64,000 nucleotides of DNA from Metallosphaera tengchongensis. Its GTDB lineage: Archaea; Thermoproteota; Thermoprotei_A; Sulfolobales; Sulfolobaceae. The stretch lies in contig NZ_CP049074.1 in assembly GCF_013343295.1 (NCBI RefSeq), positions 1,965,501-2,029,500 on the forward strand, given 5' to 3'. Each line of letters opens with the position of its first letter. The first letter of the stretch is position 1. Positions 9,916-32,781 of this stretch are shown here, piece by piece. A program made the translations under genes and the position numbers. Under the pieces are notes generated by a model. The model was not told where the DNA came from. It saw nothing but the letters and a program-made list of their open reading frames with translations, and did not search any database.

Positions 9916-10545
9916 TTGCCTATTAGATACGTATTTACTTCTCCGGGTTGTAAAGGAGAAGAGGTCTTGTCTAGGTGTAAAGCTTTTTACCCCCTTATAC
10001 CGGACAAGCTTATGGTAAACCTGCTTGCGACACTGGGGAGGACAGTTGGGGGCCCCGTGGAGACCTTTGAGAACCTCTCCAACGGGAACTATATCTCCGA
10101 CTTCCCTCCACACAAGGTCAAGGTCGACGAACTAATTGCCCTGACCACCAGTGAGACTGAGGAGACGTTCTTCATAATGAAGGCCGTCCTGATGTGCTGT
10201 CTAAACTTCACCAAGGTAAGGGCTGTGAGGCTTGACATTGACGACGTCAGTACACCTCAGGACTTCGTGCTCGTGAGGGAGAAAGTAAAGGGGCTTTTAC
10301 GTCCTGGGGACTACCTGGACTTCAGCGGCGGTAGGAAGGCGATCAGCTCAGCAGCAGTCCTTGGGGCACGTGAGGTAGGAGCTCATCTGGTGACCAGTAT
10401 AATCGGGGAGGACGAGTACGACAGGGTAAAGGGGAGGATGGTACAGATCAGGGACAGGGCGTTGGCGGTTTACAGGCCGGAACAGTGCCTAGGTTACCTC
10501 TGCGACCTCTATACGACTAAGGCCAGGACCATTGTTTTCTTTTAA
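9916..10545 (+). CDS. CARF-domain protein, candidate ring nuclease
   Basis: A 209-aa stand-alone CARF-like protein. CARF domains bind cyclic oligoadenylate made by type III Cas10, and short CARF-only proteins (Crn1 type in Sulfolobales) degrade it. Here the ligand-loop motif reads YLDFSGGRKAISSA (about 133-146), with K141 after the Gly pair, and an N-terminal loop TSPG (S9) is placed like the nucleotide-contacting serine. No HEPN, PIN or other effector domain is fused. The only available start is TTG at 9916, because an in-frame TGA lies at 9904-9906. It ends 230 bp before the old end of CRISPR array 1. Ring-nuclease activity is inferred; a pure sensor is the alternative. Confidence 0.7.
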   Translation: MPIRYVFTSPGCKGEEVLSRCKAFYPLIPDKLMVNLLATLGRTVGGPVETFENLSNGNYISDFPPHKVKVDELIALTTSETEETFFIMKAVLMCCLNFTKVRAVRLDIDDVSTPQDFVLVREKVKGLLRPGDYLDFSGGRKAISSAAVLGAREVGAHLVTSIIGEDEYDRVKGRMVQIRDRALAVYRPEQCLGYLCDLYTTKARTIVFF

Positions 10546-10775
10546 AGGAGGTACGGGTTCGCAAGATGGGTGATTAGACTAGGCCTCGCTCCCATAATGG
10601 TGTTTCCAGGAGAAGAACTTGGATGACACGCCCGTCCCTTGTCAGTCCTCTCAATATTTGAGGTAAAATAAGGTCAGCGAGCCGCGACTTAGATTCAGTC
10701 CTTACTGACCTTAGATACCTTTTTGGAAGGAACAGGACACCTAATGTCCCGCATGGTATTATGTATTTTCTAAAA

Positions 10776-15070
<4,295 letters not shown>

Positions 15071-15284
15071 TTAGGTATTTATTATCCTGTTACTTCTTTT
15101 TCACCTTCTCCTATAATAAACTTTACTACCCTCACCTGAGCCTACATGCGACCTGATATCCTTGTAATTACCTCTACGTTTCATGGTCGCATGGTCTTTA
15201 CGTAAGATTAAAAGGTGTACATGGCTTTTAAACGTTCAAAATTACGGGAGATATTAGTACTGGTCGCATTGAGGCTCGAACCAG
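15071..15284 (-). promoter_or_regulatory. CRISPR leader of array 1
   Basis: Adjoins the newest repeat of array 1 and is near-identical, in inverted orientation, to the leader of array 2 (20755-20968). The conserved core runs from CCTTCTCCTATAATAAACTT to CGCATTGAGG. It holds three copies of ATGCGACC or its complement, and an A/T-rich segment (CTATAATAAACTTTA) that could serve as the promoter. It should drive leftward pre-crRNA transcription and mark the integration end. Confidence 0.9.
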
Positions 15285-15289
15285 TCTTC

Positions 15290-16470
15290 TCTACAATTCG
15301 CACTTAACTTTAAGTCTATTTCTCGAATCAGGGAAATGAAGTTTCATTATTACGTAGTTTCCGACTAAAAACTATCTATTATAAACCCTTTTTACAAAAC
15401 ATTGTCTAAATCAAGGATACCGTTTAGTATTTAATACCTTTTTTAAACATGCCCTTTTTCACGATTAATAGCCGTGACAAGCTAAAAAGTTTTAACAGGC
15501 GTGAAGAATTTACGTCAGAATTACCTTGTCTGGACTAACGTGGGCTTTTGTCTCCGCTAAGGGGAGCCTTTACATCCACCAATGATCCACCGTGTGGACA
15601 AGGACAAGTACGACGGTGAGGGCGTACTCATCCGTGGGAGACGTCTGTTGGTCAGACAGCTAGAGGAATGGGCAAAGCCCTCAACACCCAGACCATATAG
15701 GCATAAGGGCTCTACGTAAACTGTTGACTAACGCAGTACACCTTGTAGGGATGGGTACCTGTGGTACTTCGGTAGATAGGGGAGAGGGCGGAGCGACTGT
15801 CAAATAATACCTTGGGAGCCCTTTTAGCACAATAGTTTAGACTATTCATAACACGTTGTTACAGCAAATAGCTCAACGAGTTGCTTGGACCGCAGTGGTA
15901 AACCCTGTAGCCCGGGAAGAGTACACCTGGGCTACTGGGATAGGGATACCCTTAACGGGGGCTTTCGGCGTTTTTGTTGAGGGTGACGTGGTTTATTAAC
16001 GAGGGACCTGAGTACACCTCCTCCCCCCATAGCCTGCCCTAGGACTGGACCCTGGGGAGAAGGTCTTAGCCCCCCTGGGGTGAAGGGAACACCCGAGGTC
16101 CTCCTGTTGAAGACTGGTACGTCCAACCACAACCACCTGTGTACAAGTTAAAGTCTGGGGGAGTCATACTGCCACATGTGGCTCGTCCATGCCACCTAGG
16201 ACCTCTCCTCACGTCAGGTAGCCATGACCACCTGACCCTCTCGGTGACCCTCAGGTGTGAAGGGACGTGGACTGTTGCATCAAAAAAGGGATTGAAAGAA
16301 CAAGCTCGACCCGTCCCTGACCGGGCGCAGTATGTCACGTCCAAAAGGGGTGTCAGCTGGACACCCCAACCACCTCCCCCTTTTCCTAGAGAGACTTCAC
16401 TGGGGAGGGCGTAGTCAGGGTATAGTGCGGAAGGGCTGTCCTGTCTAGGTACATCCCCGTCAGCGTCCCC
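15290..16470. other. Gene-poor stretch between leader 1 and csx1
   Basis: No supported gene. It contains the orphan repeat pair annotated separately at 16274-16356. Open frames here have no recognisable product. Confidence 0.45.
16274..16356 (+). CRISPR. Orphan repeat and degenerate partner, possible CreA-like unit or array relic
   Basis: A 25-bp copy of the large-array repeat (starts GTTGCATC, ends ATTGAAAG, two mismatches to consensus) lies alone at 16274-16298. After 35 bp a second, much weaker copy begins (16334-16356, GTCACGTCCAAAAGGGG), so the spacing is spacer-like. It sits outside both arrays, without a leader and without an obvious TATA box. CreA antitoxin RNAs of CRISPR-regulated toxin-antitoxin pairs have this good-repeat, pseudo-spacer, bad-repeat form next to cas genes. 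A simple array remnant is equally possible. Confidence 0.5.
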
Positions 16471-16471
16471 C

Positions 16472-17872
16472 TCAGGTTATCCTCCTCACGCCCTCTGCGT
16501 GGTCCTTGAGTTTGCCTTTTACGTAATCGACAATAGTCCTCCTGTTTATGTTTTGCGTCGGGGTGACCCCCCTCTTGTCGACCTTGACTCTAAGGTCCTT
16601 GGAGAGACCGCTATGCATAAGGAGGTTCCTAAACTTCTGGAAATCACTGTTGTTTAACTCTATATAGGAACCTACCAGGTCTTCGCACAACCTGTACATT
16701 CGGTCGTTGTCATCGAAAGTACCTCCCCCGTGGTTGCTCAGACACTCCGCTACAGGCAGTTCCCTAGCTAAGGACAACGCCTTGTCGTAGTACTCGACCT
16801 CTATGTACTTTTCCAGTGCCTTAAACAGGGTCTCAATGTCGTCCTTCCCCAACAGCGAGTTGAGGACCCCCTCTATGCCCAGGGTGGACGAGAAGTTGGA
16901 GAGCACTATCCTACTCTCCTTCTGGAACCTAGGCTCAGCGTTATACCAAGTGAGGTAGAGGTCGCGTAGGGACAGGAAGTCCTGTCTGAGCTGGGGTATG
17001 TACTGTTGTAGGTCTCTCATGGAGGCTATCCCGTTGACGACGAAGCCGTTCCTCATGTTCCACAGGAAGTCGTTGACCTTGTTGAGGTCCACACGCTTGA
17101 CCCTATTGACTAACTCTCTAGACCTACCGAACTCTGTCGGGTTTAGATCTCTCAACCTTCCAGTGTAGTCCACTGAGTACCTCTCGTCCATCATCTCTAT
17201 GGACAGGCCTATCTTGAGCGAGTCCTTCATCGCCTCTACGATGTTACTCAGCCCGACGATCTCGACTACACCGCTCGGGGAGCCCATCACGGGGGCCGCG
17301 TATATGTCGGACTCAAAGAGGGCTGATGAGGCCAACAACGCCGATACTAACACGTTTGTGCCGTGTGTCAAGTCTACTATGAACTTTCCGCACCCCTCGG
17401 AGTGGTACCTGTGCAACACCGCAAACACCGCGTTGTATATGAAGGTAGGGTCCCTCGAGGATGAGTAGGGCTGCCTGATAGGCCTCCCGTCCTTATCTCT
17501 GCTCAGGTTCCCTTCGCAGTCAGCTACCATGCCGCTCCCCACGCCCACGTTCGGTATGTACTCCACCTTCATCCCGTCTAAGAACTCGTTGAACTTAGTG
17601 GAGACGGGGTCAAACCCTTGCTTCTGTTGTAACTCGTGCGCCCTGGTCGTCAACATGTCCTTGTACGCTTTTTTGACGACCTCCTTGTTGTCGCAGTTAG
17701 CCGAGATGAGGCTGTCTGGGAGCAGTGCCACGGTCTCTTCCGGGTCTAGGGCGGACCATAAAGCATGTGCTGAGAAAAAGCTCGTGTAGTCTTTCCCCTG
17801 AAAGCTGTACTTGACTACCTGGTACGAGGTCACGTCCCCCGCAACGTAGGTTAAACAGGCCCTGTTAGACAT
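16472..17872 (-). CDS. csx1: Csx1-family CARF-HEPN ribonuclease (copy 1)
   Basis: A 466-aa type III accessory RNase. The N-terminal CARF domain shows the ligand loop IVDLTHGTNVLVSALLASS (about 160-180), where cyclic oligoadenylate should bind. A helical middle leads to a C-terminal HEPN domain with RNLLMH (R415, H420), the catalytic Rx4H motif. When the III-D Cas10 makes cyclic oligoadenylate, the dimer should cut RNA non-specifically. It stands alone on the minus strand between the two leaders; AT-rich sequence upstream of the ATG (17880-17915) is its likely promoter. A second, diverged family member is at 28640-30028. The family call is firm; the ring size of the activator is not visible. 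Confidence 0.9.
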   Translation of the reverse strand: MSNRACLTYVAGDVTSYQVVKYSFQGKDYTSFFSAHALWSALDPEETVALLPDSLISANCDNKEVVKKAYKDMLTTRAHELQQKQGFDPVSTKFNEFLDGMKVEYIPNVGVGSGMVADCEGNLSRDKDGRPIRQPYSSSRDPTFIYNAVFAVLHRYHSEGCGKFIVDLTHGTNVLVSALLASSALFESDIYAAPVMGSPSGVVEIVGLSNIVEAMKDSLKIGLSIEMMDERYSVDYTGRLRDLNPTEFGRSRELVNRVKRVDLNKVNDFLWNMRNGFVVNGIASMRDLQQYIPQLRQDFLSLRDLYLTWYNAEPRFQKESRIVLSNFSSTLGIEGVLNSLLGKDDIETLFKALEKYIEVEYYDKALSLARELPVAECLSNHGGGTFDDNDRMYRLCEDLVGSYIELNNSDFQKFRNLLMHSGLSKDLRVKVDKRGVTPTQNINRRTIVDYVKGKLKDHAEGVRRIT

Positions 17873-17899
17873 GTTAATCGAGTAACAGTTAATTATAAA

Positions 17900-18510
17900 T
17901 GTTATAAACTTTATTGGATATCACCTGTTTCTATCCCGTGATTGGACGTGAAGTGTGTTCTGTTGTCCCTGTGGGTGCCTCTGCAACTACGTGGACCTTC
18001 CAGGTGAAGAGCCATGTTGTGGGGGAGACACTGAGGTCCATCTCGGGGGAACTAGCTACCTGGCTCCTGTCGACCGTAGACGTGTAGGTGGGGTCTAGGC
18101 TAATTTCCGTCTCGTCTAGTACCAACCCCAAGCCCTTCACCAGGGTCCTAGCGAAGGGATGTCCCACCCCCAACGGGTGACCCCAGCCCACCTAGGTAGG
18201 GACCTGGACACCTTGGCTGTCCACACCTGTTCGGTCTTCCGGGCAGAGGCCACACCTGGGGCGAAGTCCCTTTGGGTACACAGGGCCACCAACCTAACCC
18301 CGGTCACTGAGGCGGAGGACTTAGACTCTAACTTTGCGGTACACAGTTAACCAACACCTCTGAAAGAGAGGACTCCTAGGCGCCCTACCCCTGCCACGCT
18401 ACAGGGCTCTCAACGGCCAGGAAAAGGGGCGTGGGAAGACCTCATGGAGACCGCGCGTGGAGTAGTAGGGAACACGTCCTCCTCTCCGTGTTCCTGGTAC
18501 CGCAAGGGCC
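17900..18510. other. Gene-poor stretch
   Basis: About 0.6 kb between the csx1 start and the csa1 stop. No gene, repeat or clear regulatory motif beyond the csx1 promoter at its left edge. Confidence 0.45.
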
Positions 18511-18515
18511 AACTC

Positions 18516-19406
18516 CTACCCCTTAGCCCCCGTACTACCTGGACTGTTGCAGTGGTTGAGGAAGGGACAGGAGTCGTCGCATCTCTTGGGCATCCCCGGG
18601 TCCAGGTCGTTGTCTATAGCCTCCACTGCCCTGTCCCTCGTCTCCAGAAACTCGTTCCTCAGCGGGTCAGAGACCTGGACGAGTCTACAGGTGGTGAAGA
18701 CCCCCTTGTCCACAGTCACGTAGCACAGGTAACCGAAGTCTATGGGGACCTCGAACTGGCTCTCCAGGGCCAGGGAGTACCCAGCTAACGCTAGTTCGTG
18801 CGCCCGCCTCGGCCTCCCGGTCTTCATCTCTGCGACCAGTGGTACCATCGGCACGAAGGCGTCTGCCCTGATGTTGTTCTGCAGGCCCACTAGGGACCCG
18901 TCGATGGGGTACTCAACGTGGAAGGGGACGACCAGAGAGACCAGTGAGTCCCTGGTGAGGAAGAGCCTTGACCTGTACTTGTCCACCTCGGCCGTGTAGA
19001 TGTTGACCACGTGGTCCCACATGACCTTCGCCCTCTCCGGGTCCACGACGTTCCTGACTACCCTGTAGAACTCGTCAGTCATGAGGGTCTGTAACCTACC
19101 CCCGGTCACCCTGTCCCCCTCTTCATAGATCAACCTCTTCACCCCTTGGACTGCCTCTGCGTAGACGTAGTGTAGGTCGTTTGCACCTTTGATGGCCTCG
19201 GGTTTCACCCCCTTGTGCTTGAGGTACGCGAAACGGCCCGTCTCGCAGTACCCGTTGGTGAGATCGGAGACCCCCAGGTATGTCGAGGATGAGTGGAGGA
19301 GTGGGGGCTCGTTCCAGTGCCACCCCCTCAGCTCCTCGGATATGGCCCTGGGCGTGAGCTTCACCCTTTTGGCGAGCAGGGTCACGTCAGACAGGGTAAA
19401 GAACAT
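18516..19406 (-). CDS. csa1: CRISPR adaptation protein Csa1 (Cas4-like nuclease)
   Basis: A 296-aa member of the Csa1 family, the Cas4-related protein that accompanies cas1-cas2-cas4 in type I-A adaptation modules. The start is set at MFFTLSDV (ATG at 19406), where family homology begins and a TATA-like AAAATAAACC lies just upstream. The longer open frame to 19592 looks non-coding. Visible are SEELRGWHWNEPPL, the CETG cysteine (C54), the nuclease core RADAFVPMV...EMKTGRPRRAHELA, and a C-terminal cluster (C276, C280, C286) that with C54 should bind an Fe-S cluster. It faces away from cas4 and is separated from cas1 by array 2, an unusual split of a normally compact operon. Confidence 0.9.
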   Translation of the reverse strand: MFFTLSDVTLLAKRVKLTPRAISEELRGWHWNEPPLLHSSSTYLGVSDLTNGYCETGRFAYLKHKGVKPEAIKGANDLHYVYAEAVQGVKRLIYEEGDRVTGGRLQTLMTDEFYRVVRNVVDPERAKVMWDHVVNIYTAEVDKYRSRLFLTRDSLVSLVVPFHVEYPIDGSLVGLQNNIRADAFVPMVPLVAEMKTGRPRRAHELALAGYSLALESQFEVPIDFGYLCYVTVDKGVFTTCRLVQVSDPLRNEFLETRDRAVEAIDNDLDPGMPKRCDDSCPFLNHCNSPGSTGAKG

Positions 19407-19964
19407 GTGTGTAGGTCGCCCTCGGGTAAAATAAACCTTTGTCAGGATTGTCACGGCGTCCACACGTGTTACACAGGGGTCAAGGGCTCTCCGAGCGCGC
19501 AGGGGGTCAGGGTGCAACCAGGGTGCCTCGACGGGTAGTCCCGGCCCGGATGATGGGGTCCGTCCCGAGGGGGACTTCGCTGTACACAACACCGCTTAGT
19601 CAGGGGAGGCCACCCGCCTTCAACAGACAGGTCCTTCCCCCACGTCTGTTGGTGTTCAACGCTGTCGTCTTCCTCCACGTCACGTTTACCAGTCGCCCTC
19701 CGCTGGTGTAAGTTGGACCTACCCTGTGTAACGCACATGTACGGGACAAGGTGGTCACACCTGGGTGAGTACTACTCGGACGTCTTAACGCGTCACGGTG
19801 GGACCTAGTTCTCTGGCCCCAACTGGTCACATGAGACCCCCACGGTATCTGACTGGCGCTGCCTAGATACGGCGCCTCCTTGAAAGGTAATCTCGAGCCT
19901 TCTTCTGTCCCCCCGCCCTTTGAGGGAGGGGTAATTTAATAGAGTCTCCCTCCTAACAGTAGTA
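19407..19964. promoter_or_regulatory. Divergent csa1/cas4 intergenic region
   Basis: About 0.55 kb between the divergent adaptation genes. A TATA-like element for csa1 lies at about 19426-19440 and one for cas4 (GGTAATTTAATAG) at about 19930-19942. The rest is GC-rich and holds no convincing gene. Confidence 0.5.
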
Positions 19965-20537
19965 ATGATAACTGGGGTCTCGGTCAAACATTACGTCTTC
20001 TGTCCGGTCATACTTAGAGTTGAGGGCATAGGTTTCGGGGAGAGGTTGACGGAGGCCATGAGGGAGGGGACAGAGGTGGAGGCGGAGAAGGTCATGGCTT
20101 TCCTTTACCCGACCTTGAAGGCTAAGGAGGTCATACGCAAGCCTTACTTGAAGTATCGAGACCTCTCCGGGGTCCCCGACTACGTCCTGAGGTTCTCCTA
20201 CTACTCCTCCCCTCTGGACCTGAAGGACAGTAGGAGGGTCTCCTTGGACCATAAGGCCCAGGTCCTGTTCTACGCTTACCTCATGGAGATGTCAGGGACG
20301 GTTGTGAAGGAGGCCTTCCTATACTACGTCCCCCTGGAGAGGCTGATCAGGATACCCTACACCTACCAGAGTAGGGAGTACGTCGAGAGGACTATCAGGG
20401 AGATCAGAGAGATAATAAGGGGAGGTACGGGGAGACACCTCAGGGTCACACAGGAGGCAAAAAAGTGCATTAACTGTGGTTTCTTCTACGCTTGCAGGCC
20501 CCGAAGGCAGGGGAAGTTTTTCGTCAGGGAGCTGTGA
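19965..20537 (+). CDS. cas4: Cas4 exonuclease
   Basis: A 190-aa Cas4. The Fe-S cluster ligands are C13 (HYVFCP) and a C-terminal trio C168, C171, C177 (KKCINCGFFYACRP). The RecB-type nuclease core is visible as GVPDYVLR and VSLDHKAQVLFYAYLME, including the Asp-x-Lys and Gln/Tyr positions. Cas4 trims prespacers and selects for PAM during integration. The gene reads rightward toward the leader of array 2, which starts about 220 bp downstream. A TATA-like GGTAATTTAATAG lies 25-30 bp upstream of the ATG. Confidence 0.93.
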   Translation: MITGVSVKHYVFCPVILRVEGIGFGERLTEAMREGTEVEAEKVMAFLYPTLKAKEVIRKPYLKYRDLSGVPDYVLRFSYYSSPLDLKDSRRVSLDHKAQVLFYAYLMEMSGTVVKEAFLYYVPLERLIRIPYTYQSREYVERTIREIREIIRGGTGRHLRVTQEAKKCINCGFFYACRPRRQGKFFVREL

Positions 20538-20754
20538 AGCAGGTAAAAACTTTTTAGTTCGGTAGGTTCCCGTAAAAGGATAGAACCTCGTGCATAAAAG
20601 GGGTAAATTAACTTTGTTATACCATAGGTTTTAAAAGTGTATAGAACAGACCGCAGTTTTCTAGATAGAATTCAGTATTGAAATTCGACTTTCGTAAAAG
20701 ATGTAGGAGTTATCAATAATAGGTCTTACTCCTTAGTGAATGTCTAGGAGGTCG

Positions 20755-20968
20755 ATGGTTCGTGCCTCAATGCGACCGGTACTAATATCTCCCGTAATTT
20801 TGAACGTTTAAAAGCCATGTACACCTTTCAATCTTACGTAAAGACCATGCGACCATAAAACGTAGAGGTAATTACAAGGATATCAGGTCGCATGTAGGCC
20901 CAGGTCGGGGTAGTAAAGTTTATTATAGGAGAAGGTAAAAGATAGGTAATAGGTTAATAAATACGTCT
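20755..20968 (+). promoter_or_regulatory. CRISPR leader of array 2
   Basis: Near-identical to the inverted leader of array 1 over about 210 bp, and ending directly at the first repeat of array 2. It carries the same three ATGCGACC-type motifs (about 20776, 20845 and, inverted, 20886) and the AAGTTTATTATAGG promoter-like segment near 20916-20930. It should drive rightward pre-crRNA transcription. Confidence 0.9.
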
Positions 20969-25048
<4,080 letters not shown>

Positions 25049-25125
25049 TACTACTTGACCAAGCTTACCTTAACGCTGCCGAGTACCTTCGTGCACGAGC
25101 ATCTAGTTTATAAATTTTGTTTACG

Positions 25126-25207: not shown

Positions 25208-26113
25208 ATGGGGGAGCAGGGCGATGGGAAGAAACTGGCCTTTGTCAAAGACTACGGTGCTTACCTCAGGGTTAACAAGGGCATGATAGTGTGTGAAGTT
25301 AAGGGGCGCCAGATATGGTCCGTCTCGCCAGCTGAGCTGTCTTCCATAGTCGTCATAGCCACGTCCTCCATCTCATCGGAGGTGGTCAAGTTGGCCTACG
25401 AGTACGGGGTGGACTTAGTCTTCTTTGATAGGTACGAACCCATAGCTAAGCTGATCCCAGGTAAGTACGGTGGGTCCATGAAGCTCTGGATGAAGCAGGT
25501 CTTGGCGACCAGGAGGAAGTACGAGTACGCTAGGGAGTTCGTCTACGCTAAGCTCCACAACCAGTACATGACCTTGAGGTACTACGAGAGGAAGTACGGT
25601 TATGAACTGTCATCTAGGGAATTGGACGAGCTTTCAAGGTCGGTCCTGAACCTAACTGACGTGAGGGAGATCATGGGGAGGGAAGCTGAGGGGGCTAAGG
25701 CCTACTGGAGGGGTGTAGTGAGACTCCTCCCCAAGTCGCTCGGGTTCAGGGGCAGGAAGAGGACGGCCCAAGGACAGGACCCCTTCAACGTAGCCCTGAA
25801 CATCGGGTACGCCATGCTCAGAAAGGTCGTCTATTCAGCTGTGGTGTCGGTTGGGCTAAACCCTTACGTAGGCTTCCTCCACAGCCCCAGGGGAGGTAAG
25901 ACCTCCCTCGTCTTTGACCTGATGGAGGAGTTCAGGTCACCTGAGGTGGACAGGAAGCTGATAGGTATGGCGAGGGAGAAGGAGGAGGACGTAAAGGACA
26001 AGAAGCGTGTCTACTCCTTAGGGATTGAGGAAGACCTGGTATACACGCAGGCGAGGAGGTTGGCGAACTCCATACTGAGGGGGGAGGAGTACAGGCCCTA
26101 CCTTAGCAAGTGA
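25208..26113 (+). CDS. cas1: Cas1 integrase
   Basis: A 301-aa Cas1. The N-terminal beta domain is followed by the helical catalytic domain with the metal-binding residues of the family: E159 ([10 protein letters not shown]), H225 (GFLHSPRGG) and an acidic residue in [13 protein letters not shown] (E240). With Cas2 it forms the complex that inserts prespacers at the leader end of both arrays. The ATG at 25208 follows a TATA box at leaderless spacing. The cas2 start lies 10 bp after the stop, so the two are co-transcribed. All catalytic residues are present, so it should be active. Confidence 0.96.
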
Positions 26114-26123
26114 GGGGCCCAGG

Positions 26124-26408
26124 TTGCTCTACCTAGTCTTCTACGACATAACCAGCGACGGCCTCAGGGAGAAGGTAGCGGACTTCCTCAAGAGGAAGGG
26201 GCTGAGCAGGGTGCAGTTCAGCGTTTTCCTGGGTAACCTGAACTCCAGCAGGGTGAGGGACGTGGAGTCAGGGCTGAGGATGTACTACAGGGAAAGGAAG
26301 GAGGGGGAGAGGTTCAACGTCTTGATAGTCCCGGTCACGGAGGTACAGTTCAAGCAGAGGGTGGTCATTGGTGAGGTCAGGGAGGAGAGCGCGAACGTCC
26401 TGTGGTGA
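26124..26408 (+). CDS. cas2: Cas2 integration subunit
   Basis: A 94-aa Cas2 with the ferredoxin-like opening [23 protein letters not shown]; the conserved Asp is in FYDIT. It dimerises and bridges two Cas1 dimers during spacer integration. The start is TTG at 26124, the only reasonable in-frame start, 10 bp after the cas1 stop. The length is typical. It is followed by 258 bp without a gene before cas6. Confidence 0.93.
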
Positions 26409-26666: not shown

Positions 26667-27461
26667 ATGATCTTCAAAATAGACTTTAAGGTCACCTCCG
26701 ACCACGACGTGTTCCTCCCTCCCTTCCCCTCAAAGCTCAGCAGGCTAGTGCTCACGAGACTTTACCCGTCCTACTCCAAGTTGCAGGAGGCTGGAACCCC
26801 TTACAAGCCCCTCCGAGTGACCACCATAAAGGACAGTAGGGGGAGCCCGCTCTACGCGGTAGGGGGCAGGAAGGTGATCATGAAGAAGGGTGAGGGCTAC
26901 TCCTTTAGCTTCACCTTCCTGGATCCTAAGGTGTTTGAGGAGATAGTCAGCAACCCTGACGCCGAGGTGCAGGAGTGGGACACGAGGTTCCACGTCTCGA
27001 TGAAGGACGCGCAGGTGGTGGAGGACTTCAAGGGAATCGGGGACACCAGGCTGTTCAAGGTGGAGTTCCTCACCCCCACAAGCCTCCAGCCCATAAGGCC
27101 GAACTTCAAGAGGAAGGACAATAGGTACGTCCTTTTCCCCTACGTCCCCCTCCTCATGCACTCGCTGATGAAGCACTGGAACCAGAACATGGAGGAGAAG
27201 GTCCACAGCGTTGCCGGGGTCAAGGCGCTCTACTACATGAGGGAGGTCGACTACTGGCTGAGGCCCGTGACCACTTTCTACGACGGGAGGCCAGTCAGGG
27301 GGTTCGTCGGGTGGACGGTGTTCGAGCTCAGGTCGAGGAGGTACACTAGGCTGACTAGGGCAGCGAAGACGCTCTTGGAGTACGCCAACTACTTCGGGGT
27401 CGGGAAGAGCAGGGCTATTGGGTTCGGAGAGGTCAGGGTGAGCGTGATGAGCGACGGGTAG
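26667..27461 (+). CDS. cas6: Cas6 crRNA-processing endoribonuclease (copy 1)
   Basis: A 264-aa RAMP protein with two ferredoxin-like halves. The N-terminus (MIFKIDFKVTSDHDVFLPPF) and the C-terminal glycine-rich loop GVGKSRAIGFGEVRV are Cas6 hallmarks. Cas6 cuts pre-crRNA inside each repeat, leaving the 8-nt AUUGAAAG 5' handle. It is downstream of cas1-cas2 with its own TATA box. Another Cas6 at 44836-45546 is clearly different in sequence; this copy is closest to the arrays. The catalytic residue cannot be fixed by eye, as usual in this family. Confidence 0.88.
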   Translation: MIFKIDFKVTSDHDVFLPPFPSKLSRLVLTRLYPSYSKLQEAGTPYKPLRVTTIKDSRGSPLYAVGGRKVIMKKGEGYSFSFTFLDPKVFEEIVSNPDAEVQEWDTRFHVSMKDAQVVEDFKGIGDTRLFKVEFLTPTSLQPIRPNFKRKDNRYVLFPYVPLLMHSLMKHWNQNMEEKVHSVAGVKALYYMREVDYWLRPVTTFYDGRPVRGFVGWTVFELRSRRYTRLTRAAKTLLEYANYFGVGKSRAIGFGEVRVSVMSDG

Positions 27462-31207: not shown

Positions 31208-31355
31208 AGTTCCATCTAGGTGGGTCGGGGTTGCCCCTTGGGGCGGAGGAGGATGAAGACCCGCTCGACTCCCGTGACAAGGGTTGAGGGTTGATATCAA
31301 GTATGAGATCCGATGAAACCCAAACCTTCAGCTATTGTACCCATCACCTCCAGGA

Positions 31356-31366
31356 TTTTTATATAT
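31356..31366 (+). promoter_or_regulatory. Promoter of the CARF-PIN gene (TATA box)
   Basis: TTTTTATATAT is 21-31 bp upstream of the ATG at 31387, as for a leaderless transcript. It lies only about 30 bp beyond the IS right end. Confidence 0.65.
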
Positions 31367-31386
31367 CCCCTCATTATATTATACCC

Positions 31387-32781
31387 ATGGCTAGCGAAAC
31401 GTCAAAGGTGTGTGCCGTAATACCAATAAACAGGTCGGACATGAATGTGGAAAGCGCACACTCCGCGATCGTGAGGACTTACGAGCTGTTCAACCCTCGT
31501 AAGTTCGTAATACTAAAGGCGAAGTTTAACGAGAAACTCCTCCTACAAGGGGAACCTCTCCGAGACCTCCTGGATGGGCTAAAAAGGGCGAACGTAGACG
31601 TGAAAGAGAAGGACCTCACTGGAGTGACCAGCTTTCAAGGCTTTAAGAGCACGGTTGAAGGGGAGACGCAGGACTGCGGGAAGGTCTACCTAGTCCCCAC
31701 TCCCGGGGCGAACATAACGGCTGTGTACTTGACGTTACTCTATAACCAGGACACTATGAAGTACGTCCTGGTCAACTACGTCTTTGGCTTTGGGGCGTGG
31801 TATCACCTGTACTACCCGTTCGTCCCTAGGCCACTAGAGGGGCTCGAGACAGTACCAGATCTAGGAGATAAGATTAAGCCCAACTGGAACTTACTGTCCA
31901 ACCTTCGCAGAACCTTCGAGGACCAACTGAGCTCAGTCTCCTCCTCATTCATTGGCAGCGTCTCCTATTACGTGATGGAGCTCAACAGGAGAGGAGACGG
32001 GAGAGGGTACGAGCTGAGGGTGGATCAAGATAAGGTGTTAGACACGACCAACTTTGAGCTAGGGTCATTAAGGAGGAACCTGGGAGATAGGTTCGTTAAC
32101 TCCATGGATGCATGTGTGAACGGGAATAGGGGTAACAACCGGCAGAGTGACTGGCTAGACCAACTGCTTAGCCTGTCCGGGGCATACGAGCTAGAGGTCG
32201 AGAAAGAAACAGAGAACAATAGGGTGAAAGAGCCTTTAAGTAATTACAGCGACGAGAAGGTGGTGATAGACACTAACGCTATCTATTACGGGATCCACAC
32301 TTATGAGCTCAAGCACCTGATCGTCCCTTACTGCGTCTACAACGAGCTGATGCTAGCGTCCTCAAAGGGTGGCCCTACTAGCGTCCAAAGGTCATTCAGT
32401 GCGGGTCTCGATGGCGTCCTAGGGGAGTTGGCGTTGGACTTAGCGTTCTATCTATCGCCGTCCCTGGTGCCCACACAGTCGTTACAGTGCGACGTGGCCA
32501 TACCGAGGATAGACCCCGACCTTATCAGGGACTCCGTAGTGATCACAGCCGACAACAAAGCGCTCATGCTGTGGAAGAGAAAGACCATGTCCAAGTACAC
32601 GACGATAATGAGACTAATAAAGACCAATAATCCTAAGCGAAGTCCCGGGGACAGGATGATGAGCATAGCGAGCCTTGCCGTATCCTTGAGTAGGGTACTT
32701 GATTATTGTAATTACAAATACGATATAGAGCTGTGCTGGGAGGGTATAGATACCTGCGTGAAGGTGGAACCAAGGCCGTAG
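31387..32781 (+). CDS. CARF-PIN fusion protein, putative cyclic-oligoadenylate-activated nuclease
   Basis: A 464-aa protein with two recognisable parts. The N-terminal half (about 1-200) looks like a CARF sensor: KVCAVIPINRSD opening, VILKAKF strand, and ligand-loop-like LVPTPGANITAVYLTLLY at 102-119. The C-terminal half (from about 290) is a PIN nuclease: VVIDTNAIYYG (D295, N297), CVYNELMLAS (E320), and DSVVITADN (D382, D389), with GDRMMS after. PIN domains cut RNA. Such a fusion should be a third type III effector here, beside two HEPN Csx1 proteins. ATG 31387 is chosen from the TATA spacing; the open frame further upstream is IS sequence. CARF-PIN fusions have been noted in domain surveys; I know of no detailed study. 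The PIN call is stronger than the CARF call. Confidence 0.7.
   Translation: MASETSKVCAVIPINRSDMNVESAHSAIVRTYELFNPRKFVILKAKFNEKLLLQGEPLRDLLDGLKRANVDVKEKDLTGVTSFQGFKSTVEGETQDCGKVYLVPTPGANITAVYLTLLYNQDTMKYVLVNYVFGFGAWYHLYYPFVPRPLEGLETVPDLGDKIKPNWNLLSNLRRTFEDQLSSVSSSFIGSVSYYVMELNRRGDGRGYELRVDQDKVLDTTNFELGSLRRNLGDRFVNSMDACVNGNRGNNRQSDWLDQLLSLSGAYELEVEKETENNRVKEPLSNYSDEKVVIDTNAIYYGIHTYELKHLIVPYCVYNELMLASSKGGPTSVQRSFSAGLDGVLGELALDLAFYLSPSLVPTQSLQCDVAIPRIDPDLIRDSVVITADNKALMLWKRKTMSKYTTIMRLIKTNNPKRSPGDRMMSIASLAVSLSRVLDYCNYKYDIELCWEGIDTCVKVEPRP

Follow-up and report, generated by a model that had tools for sequence, protein, structure and literature searches.

Paired CRISPR loci are well documented in the Sulfolobales. 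In S. islandicus REY15A, two loci with identical leaders lie in inverse orientation, and Csa3a binds the leader region from -143 to -94 (PMC9456107). In S. solfataricus, each Cas1-Cas2 pair goes with a pair of loci and the specificity of Cas1-Cas2 is set by the leader, not by the repeat (PMC5815122), while loci C and D have been seen to gain spacers in the same cells (PMC3468723). Leaders of the Sulfolobales kind are conserved for about 230 bp and carry common motifs (PMC4390879). For a CRISPR promoter element in Pyrobaculum, Bernick and colleagues proposed either gene conversion or strong/purifying selection (PMC3396285); we found no earlier statement of gene conversion for Sulfolobales leaders in the open literature, most subscription journals being outside the scope of this search. 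The layout of the locus analyzed here, in a window of 64,000 nucleotides from Metallosphaera tengchongensis, is thus already known: two paired CRISPR arrays diverge from each other as in other Sulfolobales, and the locus is ordinary for its group. Our main proposal, which we hold to be probable and state with good confidence, is that one adaptation module acts here on two equivalent junctions whose leaders have been kept alike by gene conversion, a process that has recently lapsed in this genome.

The architecture of the locus is clear. Array 1 (10841-15070, minus strand) consists of 67 repeats of 25 bp with its leader on the right and its newest repeat at 15046-15070, and array 2 (20969-24988, plus strand) consists of 63 repeats with its leader on the left. 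Leader 1 (15071-15284, minus strand) abuts the newest repeat of array 1, and leader 2 (20755-20968, plus strand) abuts the first repeat of array 2. As a preliminary description of this DNA had claimed, the two leaders are near-identical inverted copies, each touching the newest repeat of its array: local alignment shows 196/209 identical bases over -213 to -5, and the inverted arms 15043-15283 and 20756-20996 (241 nt) are 93% complementary. This similarity is not due to chance because the 2.18-Mb genome contains only two copies of the leader, matched with E values of 4.7e-122 and 4.5e-97. The leaders do bracket the three genes that this description had placed between them, namely a csx1-type CARF-HEPN gene (16472-17872, minus strand, 466 aa), csa1 (18516-19592, minus strand) and cas4 (19965-20537, plus strand). 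The place of cas1 (25208-26113, plus strand) and cas2 (26124-26408, plus strand) had been missed; they lie at 25208-26408, to the right of array 2 and outside the leader-bounded segment. All four of csa1, cas1, cas2 and cas4 are therefore at the locus, the first and last inside and the other two past array 2. The cas6 gene (26667-27461, plus strand) is just beyond array 2, and type III-D effector genes are found further right of cas1, cas2 and cas6. Near the III-D genes, 31291-32781 (plus strand) matches a CARF-PIN type nuclease by PADLOC profile (2.6e-105), possibly a further signaling effector. A Crn1 ring nuclease gene (9916-10545, plus strand), which is between the leaders in several relatives, is just outside array 1 here. 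Three GC-rich stretches (54-57%) at 15480-16471, 17873-18515 and 19593-19964 contain no recognizable gene and show no homology in relatives. A six-frame search of these intergenic stretches found no pseudogenes and a DNA search returned a solo repeat only, while comparison of the inner segment with plasmids gave no match and Rfam gave nothing.

The locus has the features by which Sulfolobales paired loci are recognized, namely repeats of 24-25 bp, spacers mainly of 35-43 bp and leaders pointing inward across cas genes: its repeats are 25 bp, nearly all spacers in both arrays are 34-44 bp (one is 53) and both leaders point inward. That one module would serve both loci is known from experiments in relatives, and in view of the published pairs in S. 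islandicus and S. solfataricus, two equivalent integration sites are expected biology. The proposal of one adaptation module with two such sites is supported by known Sulfolobales pairs (PMC9456107, PMC5815122) and, indirectly, by the spacers. The 67- and 63-repeat arrays have no spacer in common. Two recent spacers, spacer 2 of array 1 and spacer 7 of array 2, overlap by 16 identical nt (1/300 shuffles had as many), which suggests from sequence that related invaders were sampled by the two arrays during roughly the same period. A search of the window spacers against a phage collection gave no match and no protospacer, the PAM for subfamily 1 being CCN. Decayed repeats extend past the old ends of both arrays, at 10709-10799 and 25025-25049. 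The two arrays end in a shared terminal repeat variant (...GAAAA); a common origin was considered for it but dropped because the sequences beyond it are unrelated. An isolated repeat, GTTGCATCAAAAAAGGGATTGAAAG (16274-16298, plus strand), lies between leader 1 and csx1; it has two mismatches to the array-2 repeat, ends in the GGGATTGAAAG form of sister genera, and may be what remains of an earlier array or else have been inserted off target.

The repeats preserve a layered history. Repeats of the two arrays differ by one base, except for the six oldest of array 1 (10841-11185, minus strand), which lack the array-1 variant base and are of array-2 type, three of them exactly. The 61 newest (11226-15070, minus strand) are all GTTGCATCCAGAAAGGAATTGAAAG, and these strata look as if a single mutation in repeat 1 had been copied at each acquisition. 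The first repeat of array 2 (20969-20993, plus strand) is a unique variant, GTTGCATCTAAAAAGGAATTGAAAG. The leaders themselves differ at 17 positions, 9 of which fall in the 32 bp beside the repeat and 8 in the other 182 (p=1.3e-4, an optimistic value because the 32-bp cut was picked after inspecting the differences). This crowding could instead denote looser constraint near the repeat, but conservation across species in these 32 bp is similar to, and not lower than, that elsewhere in the leader. At 87% identity over 230 bp, the window pair is among the most diverged in our family comparison: over the core it has 196/209 identical bases, whereas most related pairs are 96-100% identical.

Alignment of 20 leaders shows that the window leaders fit the ~230-bp conserved leader with its shared motifs. 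Both contain a dyad, CATGCGACC/GGTCGCATG, at about -117 and -78. In leader 1 it spans 15145-15193 (minus strand; arms 15185-15193 and 15145-15153), and in leader 2 it spans 20846-20894 (plus strand; arms 20846-20854 and 20886-20894). Pairing between the arms is preserved at 90% over the 20 leaders, and 4/9 pairs are altered on both sides, a level of covariation reached in 4/500 shuffles. As the dyad overlaps the region corresponding to that bound by Csa3a in S. islandicus (PMC9456107), it may be a regulator-binding site in the window leaders. At about -145 to -137, the window leaders carry a conserved motif, CTTTCAAT (CTTTTAAT in leader 1), whose reverse complement, ATTGAAAG, is the end of the repeat; this is possibly a repeat-like recognition site.

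Evidence for exchange between paired leaders comes from relatives. Our comparison drew on 17 genomes of the family, with 34 leaders in all, the related loci having been found by genome search, since a related-locus search with Csa1 had returned no relative. A sequence pattern of the leader, run over the order, was too strict to be informative, having no match even in the genome of the window. Partner leaders within a genome are 83-100% identical, with the exception of G007 (64%), while the between-genome median is 58%. For 30/31 leaders the best match is in the same genome (shuffle maximum 9), and on the leader tree the genome label changes 16 times, which is the lowest number possible (0/200 shuffles as low), although G013 and G014 are not resolved as separate pairs. 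Because duplication in individual lineages could also produce best matches within genomes, we compared species pairs with matched loci, counting sites that group by genome or by locus; two of the three pairs lack full collinearity, and orthology could be checked for a single flank. In G024 and G026, where the order is the same (array, leader, csa1, Crn1, cas4, cas2, leader, array, cas1), leader identity is 100% and 98.7% inside the two genomes but 84% from one to the other, and the sites split 36:0 in favor of genome. The split is 22:0 for G028/G030 and 9:0 for G013/G014. In this last pair, one outer flank is 89% alike across species, which confirms that this locus is the same in both, while the leaders group by genome. 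In G022, the leaders are identical (256/256) and so is repeat 1, even though the second array has only one further, decayed repeat. In G015, two arrays with unlike older repeats have both switched to one newer repeat, and their leaders are near-identical. In G014 (L037, L038), a block of four consecutive spacers is identical in both paired arrays. L033 (11740-12102) is a two-repeat array in which the second repeat is decayed and the leader is identical to that of the partner array over 256 bp.

Gene conversion, sometimes including repeat 1, explains the site counts in the species pairs and the patterns in G022, G014 and G015. In the mechanism that we propose, Cas1, Cas2, Csa1 and Cas4 would form one adaptation module acting at two equivalent leader-repeat junctions, with each leader also driving transcription of its own array. 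Leaders would stay alike through non-reciprocal recombination, the pair evolving in concert within a genome, and a tract including repeat 1 would make the receiving array copy the donor's repeat into all later units. In the window, the last tract probably extended from about -214 to -35 without taking in repeat 1; array 1 would therefore have kept its own variant through its 61 newest repeats, and conversion would then have lapsed. Whereas the anatomy of the locus, the likeness of its leaders, the repeat strata and the grouping by genome in matched species pairs are read directly from the sequences, we infer from them that conversion is the homogenizing process and where its tract ended in the window. 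Together, the strata and the crowding of differences would reflect a tract that ended before repeat 1 and a subsequent lapse. Comparison with relatives suggests repeated overwriting between the paired leaders of a genome, which would have come to a halt recently in the genome of the window. A broader statement, to which we give about even chances, is that paired leaders in the Sulfolobaceae are conversion partners, that a tract carrying repeat 1 also converts the partner array to a new repeat type, that repeat blocks are an ordered record of conversion, and that a lapse lets arrays diverge.

The alternative that survives best, although we regard it as unlikely, is a recent duplication in which the leader and first repeat were copied inversely in this lineage and the copies then drifted. 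It would account for the presence of only two genomic copies, for the sharp edge at -214 and for the fact that the window's own leaders pair in 100/100 on the tree, far from all others. The preliminary description had located correctly the abrupt end of shared sequence, near 15284/20755, and had read it as duplication of exactly the leader. This reading is not supported, because the conserved leader block of the whole family begins at about -211 (in the alignment of 20 leaders), which makes the edge at -214 no specific evidence for a leader-sized duplication; exact duplication is probably not its cause. In relatives, the point at which within-genome identity stops lies between -227 and -500 or even further out, a spread to be expected if tracts of varying length act on an old pair. 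Moreover, most of the related genomes that we examined have paired leaders, which frequently diverge from the same set of genes, and since such pairs are widespread in the family, that of the window is likely to be old. The pair occupies matching positions in G024 and G026, but its sites split 36:0 by genome, and in the window both arrays are long and have no spacers in common.

Decidedly less likely is that purifying or co-evolutionary selection alone, without exchange, keeps both leaders fitted to the same Cas1-Cas2 and regulator. While the conserved motifs, the covarying dyad and the role of the leader in deciding Cas1-Cas2 specificity in S. solfataricus (PMC5815122) would be consistent with such selection, 16-42% of positions differ between species and partners are identical also outside conserved motifs, up to -500. 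In G010, G006 and G023, partner identity runs into unconserved upstream sequence, and parallel selection would hardly place 36/36 informative sites by genome. Barely credible is an invertible switch, in which leader recombination would flip csx1-csa1-cas4 and change which genes adjoin which array: an inverted repeat of 213 bp whose copies lie about 5.5 kb from each other could plausibly serve as substrate, but no recombinase gene and no shared switch feature were seen, a crossover would leave full leaders on both arrays with no obvious regulatory effect, and none of the compared relatives whose outer markers permit the test showed a flipped segment. The inversion of the enclosed segment that had been envisaged was thus not seen in these relatives, as gene order is the same in G024 and G026, and in the window as in G022 cas4 lies toward the array that cas1 flanks. 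Between species, whole arrays vary in orientation and position, forming divergent, direct or convergent pairs.

The genome of the window also has a second, unrelated adaptation module of another subfamily, with csa1, cas1 and cas2 surrounded by its own divergent array pair of 108 and 159 repeats (about 1922-1950 kb on the G000 contig; L100, L101, L046). Its csa1 and cas1 are about 33% identical to those of the window, and close to it are Csa3-type regulators and an effector protein of type I-A. The leaders of this pair are unlike (124/242 identical; random maximum 0.517), which together with the pair in G007 (64% alike) indicates that paired arrays are not always homogenized.

Conversion between paired leaders replaces the statement that a leader was duplicated by a testable process. 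It would explain why arrays of one system are alike in leader and repeat within a genome and unlike between close species, it is relevant to how Cas1-Cas2 can remain specific for two sites simultaneously, and it would make repeat strata a relative clock for conversion events. Comparison with known systems highlights similarities and differences. Loci 1 and 2 of REY15A are like those of the window in their inverse arrays with the same leader and one adaptation module, but their leaders are identical rather than 196/209, and in the window cas1 and cas2 are not enclosed by the leaders, whereas a csx1-type gene is (PMC9456107). In S. solfataricus P2, loci A/B and C/D similarly have their own Cas1-Cas2 for each pair, but effector content and repeats differ from the window, and the A leader needs about 400 bp in vitro, whereas the stretch common to the window leaders is about 213 bp (PMC5815122, PMC3468723). 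The arrays of Pyrobaculum, with an ultra-conserved promoter element and mixed repeat blocks within arrays, offer a further parallel; that study left the choice between conversion and selection open, while here conversion has been tested on matched loci between species (PMC3396285).
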